NCBI RefSeq assembly: GCF_003418935.1
Contig: NZ_QVMT01000004.1
Span: forward strand, 124,282-188,281
DNA length: 64,000 nucleotides
Direction of reading: 5' to 3'
Origin: Emticicia sp. C21
GTDB taxonomy: Bacteria; Bacteroidota; Bacteroidia; Cytophagales; Spirosomataceae
The position numbers and the translations under genes were made by a program. The notes beneath the pieces were generated by a model. That model was not told the DNA's origin and did no database searches. It saw only the letters and a list, made by a program, of their open reading frames with translations. Shown in pieces: positions 36,313 to 61,728 of this stretch (the first letter of the stretch is position 1; the number at the start of each line of letters is the position of its first letter).

Positions 36313-38745
36313 CTATTCCGTTTTTAATGACTTCACCGGATTCATCAGAGCCGCTTTGATGGCCTGGAAACTAATAGTAGCAAAAGCAATAACCACAGCC
36401 ATTACTCCGGCCAGGATAAATATCCACCAGGCGATTTCTGTTCTATAAGCGAAATCCTGTAACCAGCTATACATAAAATAATAAGCAACAGGCGATGCTA
36501 CTATTAGTGCTATTAATACTAACTTCAATAAGTCTTTTGATAGCAAGAGAATAATACCCGGAACAGTAGCACCTAAAACTTTGCGAATGCCAATCTCTTT
36601 AGTACGTTGCTGAACAATGTAACTTACCAGCCCTAACAGGCCCATACAAGCAATAAGAATACCCAGAAATGAAAATATCCAGAATACTTGTTGAGATACC
36701 TTTTCATTTCTATATAATTCTGCCAAATCTGCATCCAAGAAAGCATAATTAAAAGGTTGTTCCGGTAAAAACTTCTTCCATGTTTGTTGTAATTGCCCTA
36801 CAACTGACTGAAAATCAGAGGTGTTAATTCTTGCGGCAATCAGATTACTTGCACCACCAAAAAAGCGATTATTGACAATAAACAAAGGCGTGATTTTTTG
36901 ATGCAACGAAGAGAAGTGGAAGTCTTTTACTACACCTACGATGGTATAGGTAACTTCAGGGCCATCGCCCTGCACCAGATTGTCAGGACTGAATATTTTC
37001 TGCCCGATAGGATTTTTAAGACCAAGTGCTTTTACTGCTTCCTGATTCAGAATGACCGATAAAGAATCGTTAAATTCTCTCTGGAAGAAACGCCCTTCGG
37101 CTACTTCCATATTCAGGGTTTGCAGGTAGCCTTCATCAGCCATCATGGTTTTACCTGTTACAGTTTCTTTTTCACCACCTTTACGGAAAGTAATTCCAAA
37201 GAAAGCTTCCTGCCCCGGTTCAGCACTTGTACCTCCTACTTTTTCAACACCTGCAATTTTCTTTATTTCTTCTTTAAACACTTTAGTACGATCTCCTAAA
37301 AATCCGGCACCTCTTAGATGAATCACAAAATCTTTAGAGTAGCCGAGTTCTTTATTCTGAATAAAATTCAGTTGTCGGTATACCACCAGCGTACTGATAA
37401 TCAAGATGATGGAAATAGAAAATTGAAAAACTACTAAACCATTACGCAAGGCATGCCCTTGTTTTTTAGAAGCAAACTTACCCTTAAGCACCTGTATTGG
37501 TTGGAATGAAGACAAAACCCCTGCCGGATATAAACCTGCCATTAAACCTACAGCTATTGATAGAATCAGCATGAGAGGTATGGTTTGCCAGGTAAAGAAA
37601 TTATCTAATGCCAATTGTTTATTGGCTAAATTATTGAAGAAGGGTAACGCCAATACTACTATTAAAGTTGCTACCAACAAACTTGTTACGCTCAACAAAA
37701 CAGACTCTGTCAGAAACTGAATAGATAACTGCGATTTCGTTGACCCCAGTGTTTTACGGATGCCAACTTCCTTGGCTCTTTCAGTAGAACGGGCTGTAGC
37801 TAAATTCATAAAATTGATACAAGCAATCAGCAATACAAAAACGGCAATTACCATGAAAATATATACCAGATTTCTACTACCATTCGCACCCAATTCAGCT
37901 TCCAGATGCGATTCTAAATGAATACTTTGTAAAGGCTGTAAGAAATAAAAGTAGCCATTGCCAGCCTTTACATAATCTTTGAAAGATACTCCAAAAGTCC
38001 GTTGCACTTCTCCTGCTGCATACTTTTCAACAATGGCAGGTATTTTGGCTTGTACTTGCTCGGGCGAAGTATGTGGTTTTAATAGAAGATAAGTTGAGGC
38101 AGAAAAACTGATATGATTGGTAGCCTCGGCAAAGCGATTACCCTTAATTGCACCCAGAAAATCGAATTGAAAATGAGCATTCTTAGGAACATCAGTACAG
38201 ACTGCTGTTACTTGAAATTTTGGCCCTTGCACCAGTTCTATATATTTGCCTATTGCATTGGTTGTGCCGAAATAGCGTTTAGCTGTGCTTTCTGTCAATA
38301 CAACAGTATTCGGTGCTAACAATGCTTTTTCAGGATTGCCTTGAAGCAATGGCAATTTAAATACCTTGAAGAAATTGGAATCAGCAAATAAAACGTTTCT
38401 CTCCTGATACACCTGATTATTGTGTCTGATAAGCGTTTCACCGCCGTTATCAAAAATTCTAACGGTTTCTTCTACCTCAGGCAATTCTTTCTTTACCGAT
38501 TGGGCATAAGAAGGCGGAATAATAGCATACTTGGTCGACCTACCCGGGTAGATACGTTCAAGTGCCATGCGATAAACCCTGTCACCATTCTCCCAGAATT
38601 TATCATAACTCAATTCATCAAATACAAACATTAGAATCAGGATGCAGGAGGCCATCCCAATCGAAAGTCCGGTAATGTTAATTAAGGTTTGTAGTTTGTT
38701 TTTCAACAAATTTCGCCAGGCGATTTTTAAGTAATTGCGAATCAT
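36313..38745 (-). CDS. FtsX/MacB-type ABC permease, array copy 1
   Basis: An 810-residue permease that serves as the reference for the array. It has a positively charged start (MIRNYLKIAWRNLLKNK), TM1 (about 20-43), an extracytoplasmic MacB_PCD-type domain (about 50-280) and FtsX half one (TM2-4). A box after TM2 reads ACINFMNLATARSTERAKEV. Then come TM5 (about 437-460), a second periplasmic domain and FtsX half two (TM6-8, about 687-798) with YIVQQRTKEIGIRKVLG. It ends NPVKSLKTE. The two halves are an internal duplication. Such permeases need a separate ATPase; the box after each first helix is the likely coupling surface. It is the last gene transcribed and has its own long upstream spacer with a putative sigma-54-type promoter. 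Confidence 0.92.
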   Translation of the reverse strand: MIRNYLKIAWRNLLKNKLQTLINITGLSIGMASCILILMFVFDELSYDKFWENGDRVYRMALERIYPGRSTKYAIIPPSYAQSVKKELPEVEETVRIFDNGGETLIRHNNQVYQERNVLFADSNFFKVFKLPLLQGNPEKALLAPNTVVLTESTAKRYFGTTNAIGKYIELVQGPKFQVTAVCTDVPKNAHFQFDFLGAIKGNRFAEATNHISFSASTYLLLKPHTSPEQVQAKIPAIVEKYAAGEVQRTFGVSFKDYVKAGNGYFYFLQPLQSIHLESHLEAELGANGSRNLVYIFMVIAVFVLLIACINFMNLATARSTERAKEVGIRKTLGSTKSQLSIQFLTESVLLSVTSLLVATLIVVLALPFFNNLANKQLALDNFFTWQTIPLMLILSIAVGLMAGLYPAGVLSSFQPIQVLKGKFASKKQGHALRNGLVVFQFSISIILIISTLVVYRQLNFIQNKELGYSKDFVIHLRGAGFLGDRTKVFKEEIKKIAGVEKVGGTSAEPGQEAFFGITFRKGGEKETVTGKTMMADEGYLQTLNMEVAEGRFFQREFNDSLSVILNQEAVKALGLKNPIGQKIFSPDNLVQGDGPEVTYTIVGVVKDFHFSSLHQKITPLFIVNNRFFGGASNLIAARINTSDFQSVVGQLQQTWKKFLPEQPFNYAFLDADLAELYRNEKVSQQVFWIFSFLGILIACMGLLGLVSYIVQQRTKEIGIRKVLGATVPGIILLLSKDLLKLVLIALIVASPVAYYFMYSWLQDFAYRTEIAWWIFILAGVMAVVIAFATISFQAIKAALMNPVKSLKTE

Positions 38746-38753
38746 GCCCCTAG

Positions 38754-38765
38754 CCCCTAAAGGGG
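38754..38765. repeat. CCCCTAAAGGGG palindrome before array copy 1
   Basis: A 12-bp palindrome 9 bp upstream of the copy 1 ATG, within the ribosome-loading region. The same palindrome lies before copies 9 and 10 and after the stops of copies 2, 6, 10 and 11, so it is a repeat family of the array spacers. Confidence 0.75.
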
Positions 38766-38940
38766 GACTTGTTTAAAGGTTATTGAAAATTTGAGCCCCC
38801 AACCGAACGGTGAACCGTCTCTAAAGGTGAGGTTAGAAGAAAAGTAAATTATCTTATTCTCTATACTAAAACAATTTAACAATCTTATCATAAAAGTTTA
38901 TGTGGTTCAATCAGTCATTGTTTCATAAAGATACACCCCC

Positions 38941-38957
38941 TCAAAAAACATACCTAA
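38941..38957 (-). promoter_or_regulatory. Sigma-54-like -24/-12 element upstream of copy 1
   Basis: On the minus strand this reads TTAGGTATG, six T, then GA. It keeps the -24 GG and the GG-N10-G spacing of sigma-54 promoters, but the -12 is GA rather than the usual GC. The match is partial; the support comes from the same layout upstream of copies 5 and 7. Confidence 0.4.
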
Positions 38958-38973
38958 CATACAAACAACTCAC

Positions 38974-38989
38974 TATCAACATTTTACAC
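38974..38989 (-). promoter_or_regulatory. Conserved GTGTAAAATGTTGATA block upstream of copy 1
   Basis: This 16-bp block is repeated upstream of copy 7 (15 of 16 bases), ending at the same distance from the -24 GG in both (37 bp from first G to last G). Function unknown; it may be a bend or protein site in the promoter. Confidence 0.5.
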
Positions 38990-39009
38990 AGACAACTACA
39001 CAGAAATTC

Positions 39010-39044
39010 GTCCACAAGCGGACAGTTTTCGTACGGTAGCGTAC
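39010..39044. promoter_or_regulatory. Tandem palindromic activator sites upstream of copy 1
   Basis: Two palindromes, GTCC-N6-GGAC (39010-39023) and GTACG-N4-CGTAC (39031-39044), have centres 21 bp apart. They lie about 87 and 108 bp upstream of the predicted start, as NtrC-type enhancer sites do. An equivalent pair lies upstream of copy 7. Confidence 0.55.
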
Positions 39045-39191
39045 ATGGGAATAAAAGAGAAAAAAGGAGAAAGGCAAAAGGAAGAACGATTGTTGGGGCT
39101 GAAAAAAAGGAACACGGAGAAAGTATGTTTTTCTTTCTACGTGTTCTATATTTTTTTTGTCCGCTGCTAAACTTCTCAAGCGCAAGCAACT

Positions 39192-39202
39192 CCCCTTTAG
39201 GG
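39192..39202. repeat. CCCCTTTAGGG palindrome after copy 2 stop
   Basis: The palindrome follows the copy 2 stop by about 24 bp, behind a G+C-rich tract with GCGGCC-type hairpins. The flank GAGTTGCTTGCGC on the minus strand also occurs, with small changes, after copies 10 and 11. Confidence 0.7.
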
Positions 39203-39226
39203 ACGGTCCGCCGCTGCGGCCGGGGG

Positions 39227-41586
39227 TTACTCCGTCTTCAACGACTTAACCGGATTCGAAAGCGCCGCTTTAATCGCCTGATAACTGATGGTCAATAAGG
39301 CAATGGATACAGCCATTAGCCCGGCTAAGGCGAAAGTCCACCAGCCTATGGTAATTCGGTAATTGTAGTCAGCTAACCATTTAGTCATAGCCCACCAGGC
39401 AATAGGTGAAGCTACGGCAAAGGCGATGATTACAAGTCTTAGAAAGTCTTTTGAGAGCAAAGCCGTAAGGTTAAAGGTACTTGCGCCTAATACCTTGCGG
39501 ATACCGATTTCTTTGATACGGTTTTCGGCAGTAAAAGTTGCCAAACCGAATAATCCTAAGCAAGAGATAATAATAGCTAAAGATGAGAACACCCCTGCAA
39601 AAGTGCCAAAGCGCTGTTGAGTACCAAATTTCTTCCCGTAATCATCATCTACAAACTGATACTGGAATGGATATGCGGGATTGTACTTTTTCGTTACAGT
39701 TTCCAATGCAGCCAGATTCTGTTGAGTAGAGCGGTCTTTATTGAAACGAACTGTAATTACATTATCCCAATTACGGGGTTTTACTAATAAGGGCTTGTTA
39801 TCACCATAAGGCGAGCGAAGAATAAAGTCTTTCAATACACCTACGATGATAAAAGTTCTTTCATCGTTTTTCACCCACTCTCCTACCGGATTTTTCAATC
39901 CCATTACTTTCACTGCAGACTCATTCACAAGCATCGCCAGAGAGTCAGTTTTATAGGTATAGATATCTATGTCGCGGCCGTCTACCAGTTTCATACCCAT
40001 GGTTTTGGCAAAATTAGCTGAACAGGTCATTACATCAAAATCAATCTTATGATTCTCAGGGCTGCCTTTCCACTGCACACCCCAGGTATCGCTCCAACCC
40101 TGCGATACAGGTGAATTGGTTTTGCAAATGCTTTCTGCTGTACCATTATTCAACAATTCCGAGCGAATAAGTTCATAATTTTTACCCATGTCTCCGGTCA
40201 TGTACATAAATACCAGATTCTCACGGTTATATCCTGACGGACGGCCTTGTCCATGCTTAATCTGTTTATACACAATAATCGTACTGATAATGAGCATGAT
40301 AGAGAAAGAAAACTGAATCACAACCAGAACTTTGCGAGGAGTAACTGCCTGATTCCCTGCTTTGAAGAAACCTTTCAATACCTTAATAGGTCTGAAAGAA
40401 GACAGATAAAAAGCAGGATAGCTACCTGCCAATACACCTGTCAGAAGTACGATAATTAAGGCTGCCATCCAGTAATAAGGATTAGCGAAGTCAAGTGTTA
40501 ATTGTTTGGTAGTAAGTGTATTAAAACTTGGTAAAGTAGCATAAACAAGCAAAATGGCAAGAGCAAAAGAAATTGCCGACATAAGTATAGATTCCCCTAA
40601 AAATTGAGAAATAAGTCCTCTACGTTCAGCTCCGACTACTTTTCTGATGCCTACCTCTTTGGCTCTTTTTTCAGAACGTGCCGTACTTAAATTCATGAAA
40701 TTGATACAGGCTATTAATAAAATAAAGATGGCGATAATAGCGGCCAAACGCACATAAGTGATACCTCCGCCCACTATTTTACCCTCTTTAAACTCCGAGT
40801 ATAAATGCCAGAATTTAGCCGGATGCAAAAACACCTCTGTATCTTCTTCTTTATTCGAATGATTGATAGTGATATCCTTTATCTTCTTATTGACCAGATC
40901 AACTGATACGTTTGGCTTGAGTTCTATATAAGTCTGGTAAGAATTATTGCCCCAGTAAGAATTTTCGTTGCCCTCTTTTACAAGGTACTTCCAGGGAAGC
41001 AGGTATTCAAAACCGAAGCGGGTATTATTAGGTAAATCTTTCAGAACACCCGTTACCTTGAAATTATCCTTATTATCAATTTTCAGGATTTTGTTCATGG
41101 CAGGTTCATCTCCGAAAACTTTCCTGGCCATTTTTTCGGTAATCACAATGCTATAAATACCGTCTAAGGCATTTTTGGCACTGCCCTCTTTAAATGGGAA
41201 CCCGAAAATGGTAAGTAAGGCAGGGTCGCAGATATTTCCTGAAATAAATACGCCTTTTTCTTTATAACTAACCAGTCTTTCACCTCCCCAACTCACAAAG
41301 CGAGCCGTTTCGGCTATATCAGGGTACTCAGCTTTCAGGGCAGGCCCTAAAGGAGCAGGCGTAGTTCCCCAGCACCAGAGTTCACCATCAAAAGTATTGC
41401 GGTTATATGCCTGATAAATCAGGTCTTTCTTTCGTAAGACTGATCGTAGCTTAACTCATTCTCAATCCAGAGCAAGAGCAACATTGTGCCTGCCAGCCCA
41501 ACGGCAAGGCCAAAAATGTTGATAAACGAATAAACCTTGTTTTTAAACAGGCTTCTAAAAGCGATTTTGAAGTAATTCTTTAGCAT
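39227..41586 (-). pseudogene. FtsX/MacB-type ABC permease, array copy 2, frameshifted
   Basis: The reading frame starts at 41586 (MLKNYFKIAFRSLFKNK), runs to a stop at 41419-41421 and resumes in another frame to NPVKSLKTE at 39227. The break falls at a run of three T at 41426-41428 (A on the minus strand). Restoring one base gives SYERKDLIYQAYNRNTFDGE, which joins the halves without a gap. Apart from this the protein is full length (about 787 residues) with both FtsX boxes (ACINFMNLSTARSEKRAKEV and LATFTAENRIKEIGIRK). It is either a recent inactivation, a phase-variable run or a sequencing error. It belongs to the same subfamily as copies 7, 9 and 11. Confidence 0.85.
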
Positions 41587-41695
41587 AATTTTATAAGTAA
41601 ATGGAGAAAGGAAGAAGAAGACTGTCCCTAGAAGAGCATATGAGAGGAATCCTCCTTTTACATTTTCCTTTATTCGGATTGGCAATGAGTACAAG

Positions 41696-42154
41696 CGAAT
41701 AAGTCTTTACATAATAGACCCACAATATTTCTAATAGTTGCATCTAATACTCTTCTTGTACCAAATTCTTTTACTTTTTGCTCGGCAGTAAAAGAAATCA
41801 ATCCAAATACCCACTGCAGGCATCAGAATAGATACATCGGTGAAGCCCGCAAAAAGATACTCATTACGTTATTCGGAAAGATATTGTTTATTAAAAATCG
41901 GCTAAGAAATAAAAATTAAAAGGTAAATCAGTTTTATATTTTTTATAGACTTTCTTGACAGAAGTCACCTTTTGCTGTAGGTCTAATTTGGGGTCAATTT
42001 TAATATATAGGGTGCGTAGTTGACTAGTATCTTTTACTACTCAACTACGCACCCTAGCATATATTTTTTGTTGGAGAGAAGTAAAATTGAAATCTTTAAG
42101 TACTCCTATTTTTCAGTAAATTCCTAAAAGCGATTTTAGGTAGCTTTCCAGCAT
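41696..42154 (-). pseudogene. Relic of another FtsX/MacB-type permease, array copy 3
   Basis: On the minus strand the relic begins MLESYLK, then (after a frameshift) AFRNLLKN, and jumps straight to VLKDFNFTSLQQKI, a segment that lies near residue 600 in intact copies. After a 49-bp inverted-repeat insert it continues with LYIKIDPKLDLQQKVTS, VYKKYKTDLPFNFYFLADF and the second FtsX box as FTAEQKVKEFGTRRVLDA, NIVGLLCKDLF. About 500 residues are deleted, including the whole first FtsX half. The relic ends inside the second half, with no membrane helices 7-8. Confidence 0.82.
42008..42056. repeat. 16-bp inverted-repeat element inside the permease relic
   Basis: TAGGGTGCGTAGTTGA (42008-42023) and its perfect complement (42041-42056) flank a 17-bp loop, bordered by TATAT-like sequence on both sides. 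It interrupts the coding frame of the relic. A miniature transposable element or stem-loop insertion fits best; the plus-strand T run that follows could also make it a terminator. Confidence 0.6.
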
Positions 42155-42166
42155 ACGGTTTGCTTT

Positions 42167-42217
42167 GAGCATGGAGCAGAGGGTATAGGGAAGCGTTTTA
42201 CCCTGTGCTCTATGCTC
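42167..42217. repeat. 19-bp imperfect palindrome after copy 4
   Basis: GAGCATGGAGCAGAGGGTA pairs with its near-complement at 42199-42217 (17 of 19 bases), 5 bp after the copy 4 stop. It may end copy 4 transcription, but no T run follows on the minus strand, so it looks more like a spacer repeat. Confidence 0.65.
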
Positions 42218-42221
42218 ACTA

Positions 42222-44657
42222 CTACTCTGATTTTAATGATTTTACTGGATTCATTAATGCTGCTCTGATAGTCTGGTAGCTGATGGTTAGTAAGGCTATA
42301 GTGATGGCTATGATACCTGCCAGAGCAAATACCCACCATTTCATCTCGATATGATAAGCAAAGTCTTGTAACCAGCTGTGCATAGCCCAGCCGGCAACCG
42401 GGAAGGCGATCAAAGCTGCTATCAATACCAGTTTTACAAAATCTTTAGTCAGAATCACAATGATACTACTGATACTTGCTCCTAAAACTTTGCGAACACC
42501 TATTTCCTTAATACGTTGCTCGGCCGCATAAGTAGCCAGACCAAATAACCCTAAACAAGCAATCAGTATAGTCAGGATAGCCACTATCAGGAATATGGTT
42601 TGTTGTATCTGGTCTTGTTGATAGAATAAATCCCATTGCTGGTCTAAAAAATGATATTCAAACAAATGTTGCGCATCTATGCTATGCAGGATATTATCCA
42701 TCTGCTTGAGTGTTTCAGCGATGTTTTCGGTGGTAACCCTGCTGCTGAAATAATCAATATTCTGAATAGGATTATTACGAAAGCCCAAAACCATAGGCGA
42801 TACAGCCTGATGTAAAGACTGGAAGTTAAAATCTTTTACGATTCCTACCACTCTTACATTGAAAGAGGCATCGAGTTTTTCGATACTTCCTCCAAAGTCA
42901 ACACTTGGAATCTCAATAATCTGATTCGATGCCTGAGTAATGCCCAGTTGTTTAGCAGCGCTTTCGTTAATAATAACGGCGGTAGAGTCGACTGTGCCTG
43001 TATTAATTAAATTTCTTCCTTTTAGTAGTTGAATATCATAAGTTTTCAGGAATTGGTCGTCAATACCTAGGAAATACATATCCTTACCTTCCAATGAGGT
43101 AACATTTTCATTTTTCACTCTCACTTTAGCTAAGTTTTTCCACTCGCCCGGTACGCGCGAACTAACCGAGACATTTTTTACCTGAGACAATTTGGCAAAT
43201 TCTCTTTTAATGGTTTCAGCACCCCGCCTAACCTTACCACTATTAATATCTACAATCACCAATTGGTCTTTCTTAAAACCCATATCTTTAGTATCTACAT
43301 ATTTCATTTGCAGATAGACAATCGTAGTGGCCACTATCATAATGATAGACAACGAGAACTGAAATATGACCAAAAAGCGGCGAATAGAAAGATTTCCCTT
43401 ACCAACGTTAATTTTATTCCTCAGCAATAAAATCGGCTTAATACGAGATTGGAAGATGGCAGGATACATGCCAGACATAAGGCTGGCTACTATTACCATT
43501 ATACCCACACCTATCCAGATTCGATAATCTGTACCAAAGTCGAGCGTGAGTTTCTTATGTGTAAAATTATTAAAATAAGGCAGCGATGTCTGTACAACTA
43601 ACAGTGCTAGTACTAAAGCAAAGAAAGTTACCAAAAAAGCTTCTGCAATAAACTGTTTAATGAGATTCTCTCGAGAGGCACCTGCTGTTTTGCGTACGCC
43701 TATTTCTCTGGCACGATTGGCAAATCTGGCTGTGGTTAGATTCATGTAATTAATACAGGCAATAACCAATACAAAGACCGCCAGCACAGCAAATATATAG
43801 ATATAGGTTAGGTTACCTCCCGATGCTCCCTGAAAATCGTTTGAGTAAAAATGAATATCTTTTATCGCCTGAAGCGAATAAGCATATTTATCTTTTTCTT
43901 CCTGTGAGCGTTTAGATTTTATTAACTGATTGAGTTTTGCCTCTAGATTTTTAGTGTCAGCTTTTTCGTCGAGCAGAAAGTAGGTTGTAAAGTTATCAGA
44001 ACTCCAGTCTGAACTAATAAAATCACGGAAACGCTTACCAGTAAGACTTGATTCTGAAAAAATCAGATTGAAAGAGATATGCGAATTGACAGGAATATCT
44101 TTCAGAACGGCAGTTACCGTATAAGGAAGAGAATCGCCATCTACTTTAATCGCTTTACCAATAACATTGGTTGAATTAAAGTATTTCATCGCTGATTCTT
44201 CTGTCAGAACTACTGAATTCGGAGCTGTTAAAGCTGTTTTTCGGTCGCCTGCTAATAAATCGAAGTCTAATACCTCTAAAAAATTGCTATTGGCAATCGA
44301 AAAGTTTTCGTAAAAAACGTTCGTATTTTCCTGTGTACCCACATTGGTTCTACCCGAAGTGGTAAATCTGGCTGCTTTTTTGATTTCCGGGAAAGTAGTT
44401 TTTCCGGTCTCAGATATCTGGTAAGCTACACTGGCTACTTTGGCTTCCTTTCCCTCGGCAGAAACCTTCTTATTCACTACCCGATAAATATGGTCGGCAT
44501 GGGTATGAAAGCTGTCGAACGTCAGTTCATCAAAAATGTACAATGCGATTAAAAGAAAGCTGGTTAAGCCAACCATTAAGCCGAAGATATTGATAAAAGA
44601 GAACACCTTGTGTCTCATCAAATTTCTCCAGGCGATTTTAAAGTAATTTTTTAGCAT
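42222..44657 (-). CDS. FtsX/MacB-type ABC permease, array copy 4
   Basis: An 811-residue permease with the full array layout. The first box is ACINYMNLTTARFANRAREI (note the NYMN and FANRAREI variants) and the second LATYAAEQRIKEIGVRKVLG. The C-terminus is NPVKSLKSE, the only copy with Ser in place of the penultimate Thr. The loop after TM5 reads LQMKYVDTKDMGFKKDQL instead of the QQIQHA or QQLNYIQ patterns, so it is a lineage of its own. The downstream neighbour is the relic copy 3, and a 19-bp palindrome sits between them. It starts 137 bp after copy 5 stops, across a purine-rich inverted repeat. Confidence 0.92.
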   Translation of the reverse strand: MLKNYFKIAWRNLMRHKVFSFINIFGLMVGLTSFLLIALYIFDELTFDSFHTHADHIYRVVNKKVSAEGKEAKVASVAYQISETGKTTFPEIKKAARFTTSGRTNVGTQENTNVFYENFSIANSNFLEVLDFDLLAGDRKTALTAPNSVVLTEESAMKYFNSTNVIGKAIKVDGDSLPYTVTAVLKDIPVNSHISFNLIFSESSLTGKRFRDFISSDWSSDNFTTYFLLDEKADTKNLEAKLNQLIKSKRSQEEKDKYAYSLQAIKDIHFYSNDFQGASGGNLTYIYIFAVLAVFVLVIACINYMNLTTARFANRAREIGVRKTAGASRENLIKQFIAEAFLVTFFALVLALLVVQTSLPYFNNFTHKKLTLDFGTDYRIWIGVGIMVIVASLMSGMYPAIFQSRIKPILLLRNKINVGKGNLSIRRFLVIFQFSLSIIMIVATTIVYLQMKYVDTKDMGFKKDQLVIVDINSGKVRRGAETIKREFAKLSQVKNVSVSSRVPGEWKNLAKVRVKNENVTSLEGKDMYFLGIDDQFLKTYDIQLLKGRNLINTGTVDSTAVIINESAAKQLGITQASNQIIEIPSVDFGGSIEKLDASFNVRVVGIVKDFNFQSLHQAVSPMVLGFRNNPIQNIDYFSSRVTTENIAETLKQMDNILHSIDAQHLFEYHFLDQQWDLFYQQDQIQQTIFLIVAILTILIACLGLFGLATYAAEQRIKEIGVRKVLGASISSIIVILTKDFVKLVLIAALIAFPVAGWAMHSWLQDFAYHIEMKWWVFALAGIIAITIALLTISYQTIRAALMNPVKSLKSE

Positions 44658-44670
44658 AATTTTGTAAGGA

Positions 44671-44793
44671 TAACGGAAAACGGAGAAAGGAAAAAGGATT
44701 TATTAAACCCCTTTTCCTCTACCCTTGCTTATTTTAATTTAAAAATTCTAATGTTTGAAAAATCCTTTTTCCGTTTTCCTGTCTCCTTTCTCC
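44671..44793. repeat. Purine-rich inverted repeat between copies 4 and 5
   Basis: A left arm rich in GGAAAACGGAGAAAGG (44671-44700) faces a right arm (44761-44793) whose complement reads AGGAAAACGGAAAAAGGATT, separated by 60 bp of A+T-rich sequence. Similar arms occur in the spacers of copies 5-7. Confidence 0.65.
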
Positions 44794-44794
44794 C

Positions 44795-47233
44795 CTACTC
44801 CGTCTTCAACGATTTCACAGGATTCATCAAGGCTGATTTAATAGCCTGATAACTTACGGTCAGGATAGCAATAGCCACTGCGATTACCCCCGCTAATGCA
44901 AAAACCCACCACTCTATTTCTATACGATAGGTAAAATCAGTGAGCCATTTATTCATTAACCACCAGGCTATCGGGCTGGCAACCAATAAGGCAATGACTA
45001 CCAATTTAATAAAGTCTTTGGTTAAAAGCGTAGTGATGCTGAATACTGATGCACCTAATACTTTGCGGATACCTACCTCTTTGGTACGTTGTTCAGAAAT
45101 GTAGGTTACCAATCCGAATAAGCCTAAACAAGCAATCAGAACAGTAAGTATAGCAAATGTGATAGCTATTTTACCCACCCTTTGCTCGGCTCTGTACATC
45201 TGATCAAAACTCTCATCTAAAAAGCTATAGCTGAAAGGCATCTCAGGCGCCATAGCTCTGTATTTCTTTTCAATTTTATTGACAAGCCCCTGCAAATCAT
45301 CGGTGCGCACTTTAAATGCCATCGTCCAGTCGCTTTTGCCTAAGCGCATACTCAAGGGCCCGATGGTTTCGTGCATAGAAGAGAAATGAAAGTTTTCAAC
45401 TACGCCAACTATCTCGTAAGATTTAGTCTGACCTGAACCTGGAGGGCCGTCTGAAGTATACAGTTTTTTCCCAATAGGGTCTTCATAGCCTATTATTTTA
45501 GCCGTAGCTTCATTGATAATAATACCGCTTGAATCAGAGCCAAAATCTTTAGAGAAATTTCTGCCTTTTACAATTTTCATTCCCAGCGTAGGGATATAAT
45601 CATAGTCTATCCGCCAGGTTTGCATATTGAAGCCATTCTTCATATCCATCACCGCTTCTTTTGAGAAACTATTATCATTACGGGAAGAATTAGAAACTGG
45701 TAAATACGCTGCATTAGTGCCATTCTGCACACCTGCCAGTTTCATTACTTCATTCTTGAAAGATTCTGACTTCTGACCTAATGCACTTGTTCCATCAACC
45801 ACTAATACCTGATCCTTATTGAAACCTATATTTTTAGTCTGGATATAGTTTAACTGACGATACACAATAATAGTACTGATAACCAGAAAGATTGAAGTAA
45901 AAAACTGGAAGGTTACCAAAGCATTGCGAAAATTACTTTTCTGAAATCCGGCATTTACTTTGCCTTTTAGTACAACAATCGGCCTGAAAGAGGAAAGGAA
46001 AAATGCAGGATAATAACCTGCAAGAATACCTACCACGATAGGTAATAGCAATAAGAAAGGCAGGGTTTTTACAGAAAATAAGGTACCCAATGTAAAAGCT
46101 TTAGCTGCCAAATCATTAAAATAGGGTAATATCAGCCAGGTTAATAGTAAAGCTACCACAAAGGCCAGGTAACTCATCAAGGTTGACTCTGCCATGAACT
46201 GGCTCATTAAAGTGCCTTTACCCGTACCTAAAACCTTGCGAATACCCACCTCTTTCGCCCGATTGGCTGAACGCGCCGTTGAAAGATTCATGAAGTTGAT
46301 ACATGCCAATAGCAAAACAAAGAAGGCAACTGCCGAGAAGATATAAACGTATTGGATATTGCCATTCACGCCCAATTCCGGAAATCTATCTGATTTCAGG
46401 TGAATATCAGTCAATGGCATCAGGCTATACTCTAATTTATTACCAGATTTTCTGAATTCTTCTATGCTTTTTACCTGCATAAATTCTCTTGCCTGTGGCA
46501 CTACATATTTGACAATTACCTGCTCTAGCTTCTTCTCAAAAGCTTTATAATCAGACCCTTTTTTCAGAACAATATAGGTATGAAAGTTATGGCTTAGGAA
46601 ATTTCCGAATCCATAATCCACATTATCCATCGAAAATATCATATCAAAATGAAAGTGTGAATTCTTCGGAATATCTTTTATTATGGCAGTAATGTTGTAC
46701 TGTATTTTATCCTGAATACCTACTTCAAGGCTCTTGCCTAAAACATCGGTTGTACCAAAATATTTTTTCGCAGCACTCTCGCTAATAACAACTGTATTAG
46801 GTTGATCTAAGGCAGTTTTCGGATTGCCTGCTATCACAGGCAAGGTAAATACATCAAAGAGTGTTGAGTCGGCATAAACCACGTCATTTTCTGTAATATA
46901 CTCATTGCCTTTTTTAACAAATTTAGAGCCCTCGCTGGCATAGAATCTTACATATTGCTCTACTTCGGGATAGTCCTTTTTCAATACAGCCCCGGCAGGA
47001 TCGGCACTTACTGCCAATCGCAGGTCTGTACCACCGAAACGTATATCAGCCTCTAACCGATAAATTCTGTCGGCTTTTTCATGGAATTTATCATAGCTGA
47101 GTTCATCGACTACATATAATCCTATGAGTATAAAGCTGCTGAAGCCAATGGCCAGACCAGAGATGTTAATAAGCGAAAAAGTCTTGTTTTTCAACAAATT
47201 CCGCCAGGCGATTTTCAAGTAATTGCGTATCAT
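44795..47233 (-). CDS. FtsX/MacB-type ABC permease, array copy 5
   Basis: An 812-residue permease of the QQLNYIQ subfamily shared with copies 1 and 8. It starts MIRNYLKIAWRNLLKNKTF, has ACINFMNLSTARSANRAKEV after TM2 and LVTYISEQRTKEVGIRKVLG after TM6, and ends NPVKSLKTE. The second periplasmic domain keeps FSFLDESFDQMYRAEQRVG, the segment before TM6 that is conserved across the array. A 292-bp spacer precedes it, with a sigma-54-like element and one GTAC palindrome at the position of the distal site upstream of copy 7, so it may start its own transcript with copy 4. Confidence 0.92.
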   Translation of the reverse strand: MIRNYLKIAWRNLLKNKTFSLINISGLAIGFSSFILIGLYVVDELSYDKFHEKADRIYRLEADIRFGGTDLRLAVSADPAGAVLKKDYPEVEQYVRFYASEGSKFVKKGNEYITENDVVYADSTLFDVFTLPVIAGNPKTALDQPNTVVISESAAKKYFGTTDVLGKSLEVGIQDKIQYNITAIIKDIPKNSHFHFDMIFSMDNVDYGFGNFLSHNFHTYIVLKKGSDYKAFEKKLEQVIVKYVVPQAREFMQVKSIEEFRKSGNKLEYSLMPLTDIHLKSDRFPELGVNGNIQYVYIFSAVAFFVLLLACINFMNLSTARSANRAKEVGIRKVLGTGKGTLMSQFMAESTLMSYLAFVVALLLTWLILPYFNDLAAKAFTLGTLFSVKTLPFLLLLPIVVGILAGYYPAFFLSSFRPIVVLKGKVNAGFQKSNFRNALVTFQFFTSIFLVISTIIVYRQLNYIQTKNIGFNKDQVLVVDGTSALGQKSESFKNEVMKLAGVQNGTNAAYLPVSNSSRNDNSFSKEAVMDMKNGFNMQTWRIDYDYIPTLGMKIVKGRNFSKDFGSDSSGIIINEATAKIIGYEDPIGKKLYTSDGPPGSGQTKSYEIVGVVENFHFSSMHETIGPLSMRLGKSDWTMAFKVRTDDLQGLVNKIEKKYRAMAPEMPFSYSFLDESFDQMYRAEQRVGKIAITFAILTVLIACLGLFGLVTYISEQRTKEVGIRKVLGASVFSITTLLTKDFIKLVVIALLVASPIAWWLMNKWLTDFTYRIEIEWWVFALAGVIAVAIAILTVSYQAIKSALMNPVKSLKTE

Positions 47234-47359
47234 AATTTTTAAGTTAACGGAAAAAGGAGAAAGGAAAATGGAGAAAGGTGGTTCAATTAATTTCTCAATC
47301 TTGGTTACTCTTTTTCAATCGGTTTATGTTTAAAATATTACCATTATGATAGTTAAGAT

Positions 47360-47376
47360 GCAAAAAACACTCAAAA
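47360..47376 (-). promoter_or_regulatory. Sigma-54-like -24/-12 element upstream of copy 5
   Basis: On the minus strand this reads TTTTGAGTG, six T, then GC. Here the -12 GC is right but the -24 is TG rather than GG, the reverse of copies 1 and 7. The 17-bp length equals theirs. Confidence 0.35.
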
Positions 47377-47377
47377 C

Positions 47378-47420
47378 GTTACAGAAAATAAATACTTTTT
47401 ACACTATTTTTATCTGTAAC
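47378..47420. promoter_or_regulatory. Inverted repeat CGTTACAGA/TCTGTAACG upstream of copy 5
   Basis: A perfect 9-bp inverted repeat with a 25-bp spacer lies immediately upstream of the sigma-54-like element. It has no counterpart upstream of copies 1 and 7, so copy 5 may have an extra regulator. Confidence 0.45.
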
Positions 47421-47451
47421 GCCTTTATAATCAAAACTTCATTGCCACAAT

Positions 47452-47464
47452 GTACACTAAGTAC
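47452..47464. promoter_or_regulatory. GTAC-N5-GTAC palindrome upstream of copy 5
   Basis: The centre (47458) is 82 bp from the end of the sigma-54-like element, as is the distal palindrome upstream of copy 7. The proximal partner present upstream of copies 1 and 7 is missing here. Confidence 0.4.
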
Positions 47465-47504
47465 TCAATATGGCACAATTATCATTTTCTTCCAGTCTTA
47501 AGCT

Positions 47505-47516
47505 ACCCTTTAGGGG
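47505..47516. repeat. ACCCTTTAGGGG palindrome after copy 6 stop
   Basis: A variant of the CCCCTTTAGGGG repeat 10 bp after the copy 6 stop, behind CCCCCAGC on the minus strand. Confidence 0.6.
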
Positions 47517-47525
47517 CTGGGGGTT

Positions 47526-49973
47526 TTACTCAGTCTTCAAAGACTTCACCGGATTCATCAAAGCGGCTTTAATCGACTGAAAACTGATGGTGATAAGCGC
47601 AATGATTAAGGCAGAAATACCTGCTATCAGGAATACCCACCATTGTATATTAATTCTACTGGCAAAATCCTGCAGCCATTGGTTCATTACTCCCCAGGCA
47701 AGTGGGAAGGCAATCAGGGAGGCAATGAGTACCAGTTTCAGAAAATCCTTAGAGAGTAGCACTACAATGCTTGAAATACTTGCCCCTAATACCTTGCGAA
47801 CACCAATTTCTTTGGTACGTTGCAAAACATTGTAAGAAGATAAACCCAATAGCCCTAAACAAGCCACAAAAATGGCCAGCATAGCAAAAAAGCCGAATAC
47901 TTTTCCGAAGAGAATATCTGATTTATACTGACGATCGAAATGTTTATCAAGGAAGAAATAATTAAATGGATCGTTCGGAAAATAACGATTCCATAAGCCC
48001 TGAACCTCTCCCAGGGTTTTGCTAACATCAGCAGTTTTTAGTTTGATAGAATGAAATCCGCCATTTTGCAGGTTTATTCTCGCCACCATCGGGTTAACTG
48101 CTCTTTTCAAACTTTCCTGATGGAAATCTGCCATTACACCAATTACATTTACTGTATCACCACCGACAACTACTTTTTCGTTAATAGCCTTTTGTGCATT
48201 CTCTATCCCCAATGCTTTTACGGCCGATTCATTCAATAATATATTTTTGCGATGTTGATCTTCACCAAATTTTTCAGAGAAGGCTCTTCCCGCTACCATT
48301 TTCATATCATACGCCGGAACGAAATCATAATCCATCGACATGATGTACATAGTCGTGTTAAATTCTTTCGGTTTACGTATCCATCTTGCTCCATTGGTCC
48401 AATAAACTTCATCACCTGGTACAGTCGATGATAAGGTAATATTTTCAGCACCATTCAGTTTCAGTATATCGTTTTTAAATGGTTTAAAAGAAGATTGAAA
48501 CAAAGAATCCTGTACTGAACTCGCTCCCTCCAACACCAAGGTTTGTGCAATATCAACACCCAACTTCTGATTTCTCATATAGTTTATCTGTTGATATACT
48601 ACAATAGTGCCTATAATTAAAGCAATAGAGGCCGAAAACTGCGAAACAATTAATACCCGACGCATAGACACGCCACCTGTCAATCTAGGCATAATACCTT
48701 TTAGAACAATAATAGGTTTTACACCAGACATCACAAACGCCGGATACATTCCTGAGAGAAAAGTCCCTCCTACAAAAACAAGGAGCATAATTAGCCAGAA
48801 ACCTATGTTATTGCTAAAATTGAAGGTGATTTGTTGCTCTAAGAAATTACTGAAGGAAGGCATGGCAAAGTACGCAATGGTAAAAGATAGCACTAATGCC
48901 GAAAGATTAAGAATCAGGCTTTCCATCATGAACTGCCCTACCAATTGCTCTCTCAGAGCACCCATTACTTTACGAACACCCACCTCCTTAGCTCTTTCTA
49001 AAGAGCGTGCAGTAGCCAGATTGATATAGTTAGTCCAGGCAATAGCCAGAATAAAGAAGGCGATTAAAAATAACCAGGATACTGCCTGACCATTGCCATT
49101 CACTTCTGCTTCCTGATTAAAGTTGGCATATAAGTGAATATCTGTCATTGGCATCAGGTAAGCCTCCGTTCTGCGGTTACTTTTAGGGTCTCTTTTAGAG
49201 TTAATGTAACGGTCACATAATGACTGCATTTTTGCCTGTACCTGTGCTATAGTAGCATCCGGACGAAGCTTAAAATAAGTGTAGAAATCATACCAACCCC
49301 AGGCTGTTTCGGTAGCGTTTTCGGTATCACCCCTTTCTTTAAGAACTTTACCCAATGTGCTATAGGATACCAGATAATCAATGATCAGGTGAGAATTCTT
49401 AGGATAATCCTTAAAAACGCCTGAAACTTCAAAAGCACGCGGATTACCCATGCCGCCTACTTTTAATATTTTACCTAATGGATTTTCGTCAGCGAAATAC
49501 TTTTTAGCATAGCTTTCTGACAGCATTATCTTTTCGGGAGCATTCAGCGCAGTGGCAGAATTGCCCTTTACCATTGGTATCGTGAATATTTTCAATATAG
49601 AAGGGTCGGCAAAATAGCCTTTTTGCTCATTGAATTTTATATTACGTGCTTCGTTTGTAAGCAATATATTGGCATCAATCAGACGTCCGGCTTCTTCAAT
49701 TTCCGGAAATTCTTTCTTCATGGTCGGCGCAAATGCCGGATAAACCGTGGCCGATTTCCAAAGTAATTTGCCCTCGTTGTAATTATCTATACGTAAGCGG
49801 GCGATCCTTTCGGCGTCTTCATGAAATTTATCAAAACTACGCTCATAATTTACATACTGCAGAATCAGCAGACAGCAGGTCATACCAATAGCTAGGCCGA
49901 AGATATTCAGCAAAGTAAAACCCTTTCTTTTTGAAAGGTTTCTTAAGGCGATTTTTAGATAGTTACGTAGCAT
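47526..49973 (-). CDS. FtsX/MacB-type ABC permease, array copy 6
   Basis: An 815-residue permease, the longest here. It starts MLRNYLKIALRNLSKRKGF. The TM2 box is AWTNYINLATARSLERAKEV, so the ACINFMN of other copies is replaced. The second box is LSSYNVLQRTKEIGVRKVLG. The loop after TM5 is QQINYMRNQKLGVDIA. It ends NPVKSLKTE and keeps FLDKHFDRQYKSD before TM6. It is therefore a separate lineage within the family. It lies 83 bp after copy 7, across a hairpin, and ends 292 bp before copy 5. Confidence 0.92.
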   Translation of the reverse strand: MLRNYLKIALRNLSKRKGFTLLNIFGLAIGMTCCLLILQYVNYERSFDKFHEDAERIARLRIDNYNEGKLLWKSATVYPAFAPTMKKEFPEIEEAGRLIDANILLTNEARNIKFNEQKGYFADPSILKIFTIPMVKGNSATALNAPEKIMLSESYAKKYFADENPLGKILKVGGMGNPRAFEVSGVFKDYPKNSHLIIDYLVSYSTLGKVLKERGDTENATETAWGWYDFYTYFKLRPDATIAQVQAKMQSLCDRYINSKRDPKSNRRTEAYLMPMTDIHLYANFNQEAEVNGNGQAVSWLFLIAFFILAIAWTNYINLATARSLERAKEVGVRKVMGALREQLVGQFMMESLILNLSALVLSFTIAYFAMPSFSNFLEQQITFNFSNNIGFWLIMLLVFVGGTFLSGMYPAFVMSGVKPIIVLKGIMPRLTGGVSMRRVLIVSQFSASIALIIGTIVVYQQINYMRNQKLGVDIAQTLVLEGASSVQDSLFQSSFKPFKNDILKLNGAENITLSSTVPGDEVYWTNGARWIRKPKEFNTTMYIMSMDYDFVPAYDMKMVAGRAFSEKFGEDQHRKNILLNESAVKALGIENAQKAINEKVVVGGDTVNVIGVMADFHQESLKRAVNPMVARINLQNGGFHSIKLKTADVSKTLGEVQGLWNRYFPNDPFNYFFLDKHFDRQYKSDILFGKVFGFFAMLAIFVACLGLLGLSSYNVLQRTKEIGVRKVLGASISSIVVLLSKDFLKLVLIASLIAFPLAWGVMNQWLQDFASRINIQWWVFLIAGISALIIALITISFQSIKAALMNPVKSLKTE

Positions 49974-50007
49974 TTGAATATAGGGTTAAGAGAGAAAGGA
50001 AAACGGA

Positions 50008-50046
50008 GAAAGGAACAAGTAAAAAAGTTTTCCCCTTGTTCCTTTC
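50008..50046. repeat. Purine-rich inverted repeat between copies 6 and 7
   Basis: GAAAGGAACAAG (50008-50019) and its perfect complement (50035-50046) lie just after the copy 7 stop, set in longer GGAGAAAGGAA-type arms. The GGAACAAG core also forms the hairpin upstream of copy 7. No T run follows on the minus strand, so it is not a classical terminator. Confidence 0.65.
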
Positions 50047-50056
50047 TTCCCTCCAA

Positions 50057-52447
50057 CTATTCTGTTTTCAACGACTTCACTGGATTAGCTAGTGCCGCTT
50101 TAATGGCCTGATAGCTCACTGTCATTAAAGTCACGATTAATGCCACAACAAGCACTAATAAGAATACGCCTACACCAATGTCTATTTTGTAGGTATAGTC
50201 TTTCAGCCATTCCTTCATGGCATACCAGGCGATAGGTGAAGCAATAGCACAAGAAATGACAATTAACTTCACGAAGTCTTTTGAGAGTAAGCCCCAAAGG
50301 TTGGCAACGCTGGCTCCCAGTACTTTTCTTACACCTATTTCTTTCTTGCGTTGTTCAGCCATAAATGAAGCTAAACCAAACAAGCCCAGGCATGAAATGA
50401 AGATAGCTAATACTGAAATGATAGCAGCCAAATTGCCAATCAGCTCTTCGTAGTTGAATTTTGTGGCATATTCACTGTCTGCAAACTTATAGGCAAACGG
50501 AAAGCCCGGATTGTATTTATCGAAAATTGGTTTAATACGTTTGATAGCTTCGGCACTCGCAACATTCGGGTTGATTCTGACATTAATAAAATTTACCCAA
50601 CCTTTCTCGAATACGATAGTTAGCGGTGCAATATCACGATAAGGCGACTGCATCATTACATCTGCTACCACTCCTACTATTCTGCGATCTTTGCCATTCC
50701 ATTTTACCATTTCATCTACCGGATGTTTCAGCCCCATTCGTTTAACGGCGGCCTCATTCAGAATTACACCTGTAGAATCAGTCGAAAACTCTTTAGAAAA
50801 ATCTCTACCTTCTTTTAATTTTACACCTATTGTTTTTACATAATCATAATTGGTAGCAATGGTATTAAAAAGAACTGATTTTTCTTCCGGTGTTGAGCCT
50901 TTCCACTCCCAGCCATTATTATTACTGTAGATATCAGTTGGTGGCGAATTAGTTTCGCAAACAGATGATACCATTCCTGAAGCAATCAATTCGTTGCGGA
51001 GAGGCTCATAATTGTCAATCAGGTCTTTAGAAACTTCTACCGAAATAAGCCCCTGACTATTAAATCCAATAGGACGGTTTTTAGCATGCTGTATCTGCTG
51101 ATAGATAATCACAGTGCCAATCATCAGTACAATAGAGAAAGTAAACTGGATAACTACCAGAATTTTGCGTGGTAAAGAGGCATTCTTACCCACATGTACG
51201 CCGCCTTTCAGGATTTTAACAGGGTTGAAAGAAGATAGATAAAGGGCAGGATAGCTTCCGGCTAATAAACCTGTAAATAGTGTAAAACCTAGTATAATTG
51301 CCCAGAAAACAGGATTATCAAACTGAATACTCATCAGTTTTTCGGTCAGTTTATTAAAGTATGGCAACGAAAGTGCTACAAGAAGAAATGCTACTATCAA
51401 CGCCAGAAAAGCAATCAGAATAGATTCGCTCAAAAACTGGCCGATTAATTGTTTACGGGCTGACCCAACTGCTTTGCGTACACCCACTTCTTTGGCGCGC
51501 TTTTCCGAACGGGCAGTACTCAGGTTCATGAAATTGATACAGGCAATTACCAGAACAAAGATGCCGAAAATACCAAACAGCTTCACGTATCTGATGAATC
51601 CACCTGAGTTCACACCATCGGTAAAATCGGAGTATAAGCGCCATTTTTCCATTGGGTGTACAAAGACAGCAGGCTTAATGCTTTTTTGCATCAGCTCATT
51701 ATCTTTAAAATGGTCTAATACCACATTCTTGATTTTGGTACTGGTTTTTTCAGGGTCAACACCATCCTTCAGCTGTGCATACGCCTGCCATGAATTATTA
51801 CCCCAGTTTGTTTTATGAAATTTTGGAATCCAGTCGTAAATTTTTTCCTGTAAATGCCAGGGCATCAGATAATCGTATTGCAAGGTGGCGTTCTTTGGCT
51901 GTTTTTCTACTACAGCAGTTACCTTCAGATTCATTGTATTATCTACTCTCACTACCTTGCCAACAGGGTCTTGCTTACCAAAAAGAGCTTCGGCCGTTTC
52001 CTCTGTCAATACGATAGAATAAGGCTCTTTCAATGGGTCTTTATCTCCATTTTTAACTTTCAATGAGAACATATCAATGGCATCCTGGCCAATAAAATGT
52101 CCGAATTTCAAAAATTTCTGATTACCTACTACTAGTGAGCGGGTACTACCCCAGTCGCACATGGCTACAGCTTTAAAATCAGGGAATTTTGTTTGCAATT
52201 CATCTCCCATCGGGAAAGGGATGGCATCTTGTGTACCTCGTTTTCCATCAAAGGTCTGATGCATTTTAATCTGATAAAGCGTAGCATAATTGGCATGGTG
52301 CTTATTGGCCGACAGCTCGTCGTTTATCCAAAGACCGATCATCATAGCCACTGCCATACCTACGGCCAGACCAAAGACATTAATAAACGAGTAAACCTTA
52401 CTCTTAGCAAGATTTCTCCAGGCGATTTTTAAGTAATTGCGTATCAT
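50057..52447 (-). CDS. FtsX/MacB-type ABC permease, array copy 7
   Basis: A 796-residue permease of the QQIQHA subfamily (with copies 2, 9 and 11). The start at 52447 (MIRNYLKIAWRNLAKSKVY) is fixed by alignment with the other copies. A longer frame from 52567 would translate spacer repeats. The boxes are ACINFMNLSTARSEKRAKEV and LASFMAEQRKKEIGVRKVLG; the end is NPVKSLKTE. The first periplasmic domain starts NKHHANYATLYQIKMHQ, close to copies 9 and 11. A 418-bp spacer with a hairpin, a sigma-54-like element and two palindromic sites precedes it, so it probably heads a transcript with copy 6. Confidence 0.93.
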   Translation of the reverse strand: MIRNYLKIAWRNLAKSKVYSFINVFGLAVGMAVAMMIGLWINDELSANKHHANYATLYQIKMHQTFDGKRGTQDAIPFPMGDELQTKFPDFKAVAMCDWGSTRSLVVGNQKFLKFGHFIGQDAIDMFSLKVKNGDKDPLKEPYSIVLTEETAEALFGKQDPVGKVVRVDNTMNLKVTAVVEKQPKNATLQYDYLMPWHLQEKIYDWIPKFHKTNWGNNSWQAYAQLKDGVDPEKTSTKIKNVVLDHFKDNELMQKSIKPAVFVHPMEKWRLYSDFTDGVNSGGFIRYVKLFGIFGIFVLVIACINFMNLSTARSEKRAKEVGVRKAVGSARKQLIGQFLSESILIAFLALIVAFLLVALSLPYFNKLTEKLMSIQFDNPVFWAIILGFTLFTGLLAGSYPALYLSSFNPVKILKGGVHVGKNASLPRKILVVIQFTFSIVLMIGTVIIYQQIQHAKNRPIGFNSQGLISVEVSKDLIDNYEPLRNELIASGMVSSVCETNSPPTDIYSNNNGWEWKGSTPEEKSVLFNTIATNYDYVKTIGVKLKEGRDFSKEFSTDSTGVILNEAAVKRMGLKHPVDEMVKWNGKDRRIVGVVADVMMQSPYRDIAPLTIVFEKGWVNFINVRINPNVASAEAIKRIKPIFDKYNPGFPFAYKFADSEYATKFNYEELIGNLAAIISVLAIFISCLGLFGLASFMAEQRKKEIGVRKVLGASVANLWGLLSKDFVKLIVISCAIASPIAWYAMKEWLKDYTYKIDIGVGVFLLVLVVALIVTLMTVSYQAIKAALANPVKSLKTE

Positions 52448-52478
52448 AATTTTGAGGTATTGGAAAAAGGAGCAGGGA

Positions 52479-52517
52479 GAACGGAACAAGGAAAAGCAAA
52501 TACGACTTGTTCCGTTC
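52479..52517. repeat. 12-bp hairpin upstream of copy 7
   Basis: GAACGGAACAAG (52479-52490) and its perfect complement (52506-52517), extended by imperfect GGAAAAAGGAG-type arms, fall in the leader between the predicted promoter and the copy 7 ATG. In the RNA it could modulate translation. Confidence 0.65.
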
Positions 52518-52556
52518 GACGTTTTCCTTTCTCCATTTTCTATTGTAATTATAGCA

Positions 52557-52573
52557 TCTAAAGCCATGCCAAA
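52557..52573 (-). promoter_or_regulatory. Sigma-54-like -24/-12 element upstream of copy 7
   Basis: On the minus strand this reads TTTGGCATG, GCTTTA, then GA. The -24 half (TTGGCATG) is the best match of the three to the sigma-54 consensus TTGGCACG. The -12 is GA instead of GC. It lies about 110 bp before the ATG. Confidence 0.5.
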
Positions 52574-52589
52574 ATCACAACACTCTTAT

Positions 52590-52605
52590 TATCAACATAT
52601 TACAC
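52590..52605 (-). promoter_or_regulatory. Conserved GTGTAATATGTTGATA block upstream of copy 7
   Basis: This block differs by one base from the one upstream of copy 1 and has identical distance to the -24 GG. Conservation across otherwise different spacers implies function. Confidence 0.5.
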
Positions 52606-52622
52606 CCAGTTAAAAATAAAAT

Positions 52623-52661
52623 CCTGTCCGAAAATGGACAGGATTTCGTACAGTAACGGAC
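52623..52661. promoter_or_regulatory. Tandem palindromic activator sites upstream of copy 7
   Basis: CCTGTCC-N6-GGACAGG (52623-52642) and GTACAGTAACGGAC (52648-52661) have centres 22 bp apart. They lie about 88 and 110 bp upstream of the predicted start. Both palindromes share the GTCCG/CGGAC or GTAC halves found upstream of copy 1. Confidence 0.6.
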
Positions 52662-59106: not shown

Positions 59107-59130
59107 AACCCCTCCGAATCGTCGGACCGT

Positions 59131-59142
59131 CCCCTAAAGGGG
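59131..59142. repeat. CCCCTAAAGGGG palindrome before copy 9
   Basis: A perfect 12-bp palindrome 24 bp upstream of the copy 9 ATG, next to a second small inverted repeat in the CCTCCGAATCGTCGGACC stretch. Confidence 0.7.
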
Positions 59143-59220
59143 GATTTTAAAAGTTTTATAATATTTTCCTCCATCCCCATTTTATTTAAGCTTGCGCAAC
59201 TACTCATGCGTAAGCAACTT

Positions 59221-59231
59221 CCCTTTAGGGG
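59221..59231. repeat. CCCTTTAGGGG palindrome after copy 10 stop
   Basis: This lies 29 bp after the copy 10 stop, behind a G+C-rich GCGCGGGG tract. The flank TTGCTTACGCATGAGTAG on the minus strand recurs after copy 11. Confidence 0.65.
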
Positions 59232-59259
59232 CCGGGCGGACGCCGCGCGGGGCGGTATT

Positions 59260-61634: not shown

Positions 61635-61704
61635 GACTTTTTAAAAGTTAGATATTATGTTCCTTAAAACCCCTTTTTGCTTAATTACTCGTGCGTAAGC
61701 AGCT

Positions 61705-61716: not shown

Positions 61717-61728
61717 CGGGGGGCGCGT

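Follow-up and report, generated by a model that had tools for sequence, protein, structure and literature searches.

Sigma-54 control of FtsX-like permeases (COG0577) has been predicted in Bacteroidia, and the authors of that study call the link first evidence (PMC12316311; PLoS One, 2025). For the orp operons of Desulfovibrio vulgaris, the participation of the activator DVU2106 and of IHF was shown experimentally (PMC3897727; PMC4641369). The present analysis concerns a window of 64,000 nucleotides from Emticicia sp. C21 (genome size 6.64 Mb; contig NZ_QVMT01000004.1, hereafter C28, positions 124282-188281). This window contains a series of MacB_PCD/FtsX permease genes, counted here as copies, on the minus strand (window positions 36313 to 63909 and onward, with the array reaching C28:229.8 kb). 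The interpretation of the upstream spacers of copies 1 and 7 as predicted sigma-54 promoter cassettes is well supported. Judging from the sequence data, it is highly probable that an NtrC-type regulator encoded on the same contig (the C28 regulator) drives, together with sigma-54, these two copies and the wider exporter family via matching cassettes.

The studied cassettes share permease family and sigma factor with the system described in PMC12316311. That work was performed at the COG level with a TGGCACN5-7TTGCT-type consensus; its accessible part gives no activator, dyad or IHF site for the permeases, and the word 'MacB' is absent from its main text. What the present analysis adds to this is a candidate activator, a candidate kinase, a description of the cassette (dyad, IHF-like site, fixed geometry, relaxed -12 element) and a set of target genes. 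As far as the accessible parts of the two orp papers go, the features in common with the orp system are a GAFTDA activator, palindromic activator sites (one of them at -88), IHF sites between the activator sites and the promoters, and divergent sigma-54 operons. However, DVU2106 is listed there as single-component and is associated with cell-division genes, whereas the C28 regulator is a response regulator linked to exporters. The latter shares receiver, AAA+ and Fis-type helix-turn-helix domains with response regulators of the NtrC/ZraR type (best solved chain 4l4u, E 2e-87) but differs in its GAFTDA loop and in its linkage to HlyD and permease arrays. The permeases have the MacB periplasmic core and FtsX domains in common with MacAB-TolC exporters (best solved chain MacB 5lil, E 1.4e-13), and genes for an HlyD adaptor, an ATPase and TolC-like proteins stand under the same cassettes. 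Unlike MacAB-TolC, these are two-module permeases with no fused ATPase, and 25 of them share an array with just one ATPase gene. Control by sigma-54 together with an NtrC-type regulator is already known in kind, and the exporter cassettes are a large new case of the same. No paper on the C28 regulator, the dyad or the array was found in a search outside of which most subscription journals lay; PMC12316311 covers the permease family only.

The cassette is composed of two TGTCCG-n4-CGGACA-type dyads, an IHF-like site and a TTGGCAY..TTTG element located 88-91 nt from the distal dyad (Table 1). At copies 1 and 7, the dyads are 21-22 bp apart, and both promoters display GG-n10-G, that is, the GG at -24 and the G at -12. 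This layout was found exactly where a preceding sequence-only reading of the window had placed it, and well beyond chance expectation: a nine-site profile from which both window sites were excluded matched copy 7 with E 1.4e-14 and copy 1 with E 7e-10 in 818 kb (both strands). These 818 kb represent 12% of the genome and were mostly picked around exporters and regulators. A profile from six PadR-type sites alone matched the dyads of copy 1 with E 7e-6 and copy 7 with E 9e-4. The dyad centres relative to the predicted start (-108.5 and -87.5 in copy 1; -109.5 and -87.5 in copy 7) agree with the earlier values. The distance from the IHF-like block to the -24 GG is equal in both copies, as had been noted, but amounts to 19 bp instead of 37 bp. 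The promoter score of copy 1 is the lowest among the dyad-pair sites (16.5 of 24), TAGGTA being present instead of TTGGCA.

Pairs of dyads (GTMC-n5-7-GKAC, gap of 3-9 nt) were detected at 11 places in the 818 kb, copies 1 and 7 included. They were scored for sigma-54-like elements on the gene-ward strand, over 30-149 nt from the distal dyad, with a matrix written after these sites were seen. The top-scoring element started at 88-90 nt in ten of the 11 places; in the eleventh it started at 98 nt, roughly one helical turn farther. The genome-wide search for dyad pairs near -24/-12 sites, which the sequence-only reading had proposed, yielded 14 strong cassettes. Namely, the profile of all 11 sites identified 14 places at E<1e-10, of which 11 are the training sites and three (C12:402131, C1:229741, and C28:77437) are not; weak cassettes were possibly missed because 150 of 9030 loose candidates were scored. 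Instead of being scattered over random spacers, an outcome considered in the earlier reading, all 14 precede exporter genes. These are HlyD (one), array permeases (four), a PadR-like gene followed by a permease (seven, the Pfam check of the PadR-like genes covering the C5 member only), a lone permease (one), and an ATPase and TolC-like pair (one). A fifteenth place, C1:372919 (E 6e-5), is likewise located ahead of a permease gene. The genome encodes 53 two-module permeases, built from 115 FtsX matches (150 of 158 candidates scored), 25 of them within the array. If neighbours are chained, 48 of the 53 are co-directional behind one of the 15 cassettes and may be transcribed from them, a suggestion to be taken with caution above all for genes far from the cassette.

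The promoter letters were compared in 87 distinct cassettes, which are not independent because related species are included. Conservation in this set is 99% at both G positions of -24 and at the -12 G, but GG, G and spacing are partly built in because the elements were picked by the profile and a search range of 78-111 nt. In a profile-free spacing test, 26 of 80 related HlyD loci had a strict dyad pair upstream of HlyD, and the best promoter element was located at 88-91 nt in all 26. The -12 G is followed by A in 41%, G in 39%, T in 11%, and C in 8% of the 87 cassettes; the rarity of C is not built in because the score favoured C. The GA at -12, regarded as the weak point by the sequence-only reading, would therefore be no weakness within the cassette family. 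A C after the -12 G is usual but not required, validated sigma-54 promoters without it being named in the accessible text of PMC12316311. The loss of this C as a trait peculiar to the regulon was considered and dropped, as it is not separable from a genome-wide habit (C in two of eight similar intergenic elements outside the regulon). In C1:137308 and in eight of the 87 cassettes, the dyads are shifted away from the promoter by about one helical turn, to 99-104 nt from the model start. The rpoN gene is present twice in the genome (two PF00309 matches over the cut-off, C29:184158 and C14:19187), and the C14 copy is located near an activator gene (C14:21103) and a kinase-like match (C14:23000).

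The block between dyads and promoter, GTGTAAnATGTTGATA, includes YAAnnnnTTGATW; read as its reverse complement, this motif is the IHF consensus of E. coli, WATCAANNNNTTR, which PMC5963220 quotes. Perfect matches in this interval occur in 17 of the 87 cassettes versus 0.9 expected from dinucleotide shuffles, and matches with at most one mismatch in 57 versus 14.0. One gene of the HU/IHF family was found (C28:259509), the nearest solved chains being HU and IHF.

An NtrC-type regulator had been anticipated near the array, and such a gene indeed adjoins its HlyD end. The C28 regulator (C28:233216-234568) is a response regulator of 450 amino acids with a receiver (PF00072), a sigma-54 AAA+ domain (PF00158) and a Fis-type helix-turn-helix (PF02954). 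Its gene lies at the distal end of the array, 45 kb beyond the window, and is divergent from HlyD, with a cassette between the two genes. The ATPase (C28:230860-231537) and then the HlyD adaptor (C28:231595-232845; 98% identity to that of Emticicia agri) are both ahead of the first array permease. Among the best 80 of 283 HlyD loci, a regulator orthologue is present in 71, being divergent from HlyD in 66 and closest to the C28 regulator in 71 of 71; it was not found within the examined stretch at nine loci, with little upstream sequence available for L190 and L124. Profile matches on the HlyD strand ahead of HlyD were obtained in 76 of the 80 loci at E<=0.01 (65 of 80 in a separate local HMMER run). 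A kinase-like gene follows directly behind the regulator in Runella and Larkinella, while the ATPase-TolC pair, regulator and kinase occur together ahead of HlyD in Lacihabitans (two of the relatives' kinases were checked by Pfam). Their best match in the studied genome, C30:307063 (58%, HATPase domain), is probably the histidine kinase of the C28 regulator. The linkage of regulator, kinase, HlyD, ATPase, TolC and permease genes is observed in the sequence, as are the sequence, promoter grammar, geometry, conservation and synteny of the cassettes.

At copy 1, the two closest relatives, E. agri and strain BO119, retain the dyads, the IHF-like site and 20 bases across -24/-12; these 20 bases are letter-identical, while the flanks have diverged. 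Across 146 genomes of the order, with 24 candidates scored per genome, cassettes (E<=1e-5) were detected in 47, a regulator match (E<=1e-100) in 85, and both in 44. The regulator match is present in 44 of the 47 cassette-bearing genomes versus 41 of the 99 without cassettes (Fisher p 2.8e-10, a value that overstates the association because the genomes are related and the cut-off admits a paralogue of the type found on contig C23). Naming the activator from genome-wide presence alone was dropped, as this cut-off also catches the C23-type paralogue. In a sample of 29 cassettes, one per genome, 21 are located ahead of exporter parts or PadR (BLAST), and one (L209) ahead of an HlyD-like and TolC-like pair (by eye).

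In the mechanism proposed here, a histidine kinase, probably C30:307063, would phosphorylate the C28 regulator, which would then bind both TGTCCG-n4-CGGACA-type dyads near -109 and -88. A protein of the HU/IHF type would bend the DNA at the IHF-like site, and the AAA+ ring would open the sigma-54 polymerase at the TTGGCAY..TTTG element. Because the same cassette heads the HlyD-ATPase genes, four array permeases, the ATPase-TolC pair and the PadR-permease operons, one signal could switch on the whole MacAB-TolC-like exporter family, whose products might jointly export a substrate. As a more speculative extension, which we regard as possible but doubtful, one two-component system with sigma-54 could act as a master switch devoted to almost all members of the expanded permease family. 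In this view, the family would spread by copying permease and cassette together, and the GAFTDA activator would have co-evolved with a -12 element that lost its C. The 53 two-module MacB/FtsX permeases, 25 of them in one array, have no known role; given a candidate regulator and kinase, a dyad and a promoter grammar, their signal and substrate would become testable. In addition, a defined promoter set is linked here to an activator in which the GAFTDA variant occurs naturally. A matrix expecting TTGC may miss such promoters in the order, and the cassette grammar (dyad spacing, IHF-like site, relaxed -12) could improve sigma-54 promoter prediction there.

Several observations speak against control by the C28 regulator and sigma-54, or against its generality. 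The loop of this regulator reads GAFTDA instead of GAFTGA, with GA[FY]TDA in 70 of 70 complete orthologues; GAFTDA and GAYTDA are among the loop variants listed as tolerated in PMC4641369, as far as accessible, and would keep activity. The C that usually follows the G in the -12 consensus hardly occurs in the cassettes. Profile matches were obtained on the opposite strand only in three HlyD loci (L152, L154, and L175), and three of the 47 cassette-bearing genomes (G027, G034, and G087) lack a regulator match at the cut-off of E<=1e-100, which cannot tell a C28 orthologue from a C23-type paralogue. The copy 1 cassette was not found at the orthologue in strain 21SJ11W-3, and that of copy 7, kept in strain BO119, was not found at the orthologues in E. 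agri, strain 21SJ11W-3 and E. aquatilis. Finally, seven of the 29 sampled cassettes precede non-exporter genes, judged by eye to code for outer-membrane or small secreted proteins, an ECF sigma factor or a peptidase, or without a clear assignment. Apart from the peptidase, the kinds just named were assigned in this way behind the cassettes of L203, L217, L197, L214, and L218.

The paralogue C23:493395 displays the same GAFTDA loop and a nearly identical recognition helix (LTRxALYRR), so that it, with its own kinase, could be chief among other activators acting on some or all of these sigma-54 promoters. Another HlyD gene on the C23 contig has a weak cassette match (C23:501717, E 0.02). It is, however, the C28 regulator and not this paralogue that is divergent from the cassette and HlyD, and the regulator is closest to that of C28 in 71 of the 71 loci where it was found; we therefore consider control by another activator unlikely. 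The region C23:492083-494744 (G000) encodes this second GAFTDA activator and a kinase-like neighbour, and FtsX permeases are also present on the contig. The box TAnnTTTG is a housekeeping promoter element. Boxes of this kind with one mismatch are present in all three spacers, and the genes might be transcribed by the housekeeping sigma factor, with the dyads as operators of an ordinary regulator. Since the exact box is absent from all three spacers and such promoters leave unexplained both the constant spacing of the TTGGCAY..TTTG element in 26 of 26 strict pairs and the neighbouring sigma-54 activator gene, this explanation is very unlikely, and TAnnTTTG promoters ahead of copies 1, 5, and 7 were set aside. 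That the cassettes are a functionless repeat duplicated along with the permeases would fit the turnover of cassettes between relatives and the existence of near-copies, such as those of copy 7 and C28:203111. It is exceedingly improbable, given that PadR-type and array-type cassettes are unlike outside the dyads and promoter and that the core of copy 1 is identical in three species with changed flanks.

A common NtrC-type activator acting with sigma-54 had been proposed for copy 5 as well. This idea is supported by genome, cross-species and synteny data for copies 1 and 7 but not for copy 5. The dyad and the element are present in its spacer, 89 nt apart, and the -12-like TTTTTTGCATCT is retained in strain BO119, as expected of a worn yet working third member, which we nevertheless consider quite improbable. 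Among 132 single dyads in the 818 kb, 11 have a sigma-54 score >=17 at 88-91 nt, nine of these being in dyad pairs. That leaves copy 5 and C1:218345, the latter within a permease gene, versus approximately 0.7 expected from the background rate, which places the geometry of copy 5 at chance level. The full profile gave no match in this spacer at E<=1000; copy 5 remained unmatched in all of the 818 kb profile runs, with no match at five orthologues. The BO119 spacer has no dyad and no -24, and that of E. agri is just 115 bp. Copy 5 was accordingly rejected as a third cassette member on profile, orthologues, synteny and chance-level geometry, and may represent a chance likeness or a worn-out relic.

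Table 1. Features of the spacers and permease genes of copies 1, 5, and 7 (window positions).
Feature	Position	Strand	Sequence	Basis and remarks
Copy 1 distal activator dyad	39031..39044	-	GTACGCTACCGTAC	Pattern and profile; kept in E. agri and strain BO119
Copy 1 proximal activator dyad	39010..39023	-	GTCCGCTTGTGGAC	Pattern, profile, synteny
Copy 1 IHF-like site (block of the sequence-only reading)	38974..38989	-	GTGTAAAATGTTGATA	Matches YAAnnnnTTGATW; family test
Copy 1 -24/-12 element	38941..38956	-	TAGGTATGTTTTTTGA	Promoter score, synteny; predicted start 38929
Copy 7 distal activator dyad	52648..52661	-	GTCCGTTACTGTAC	Pattern and profile; kept in strain BO119, absent at E. agri orthologue
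Copy 7 proximal activator dyad	52626..52639	-	GTCCATTTTCGGAC	Pattern, profile, synteny
Copy 7 IHF-like site (block)	52590..52605	-	GTGTAATATGTTGATA	Matches YAAnnnnTTGATW; family test
Copy 7 -24/-12 element	52557..52572	-	TTGGCATGGCTTTAGA	Promoter score, synteny; predicted start 52545
Copy 5 GTAC dyad, membership not supported	47452..47464	-		Pattern; no profile match at five orthologues
Copy 5 -12-like element, membership not supported	47360..47375	-	TTTGAGTGTTTTTTGC	Promoter score, synteny
Copy 1 permease (MacB_PCD, FtsX)	36313..38745	-		Domain scan
Copy 7 permease (MacB_PCD, FtsX)	50057..52447	-		Domain scan; start moved from 52567

MacB_PCD and FtsX domains were present in all eight window permeases scanned, while the ABC_tran domain was absent from all eight, the ATPases being encoded by separate genes. 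These permeases are MacB-like but not MacB, because no ATPase is fused to them. The gene of copy 7 probably starts at 52447 rather than at 52567, since the start codon of the longer version sits within the -24 element.

Copies 2 and 3 of the sequence-only reading (39227-41296 and 41419-41694; minus strand) look like a single permease gene broken into two open reading frames. Next to the split gene, the region 39227-42060 (minus strand) also shows a further permease gene, apparently left as a 3' remnant, and a palindrome near 42009-42055. Repeats of the CCCCTTTAGGGG type flank several window spacers directly at the start codons, for example at 38746-38770, 59120-59262, and 61640-61720. An amidohydrolase gene is located within the permease array (55353-56630; minus strand). 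Finally, positions 30907-34347 (minus strand) encode a protein of 1146 amino acids with ThuA, glucose/sorbosone dehydrogenase, PKD, cytochrome c, and CBM6 domains.

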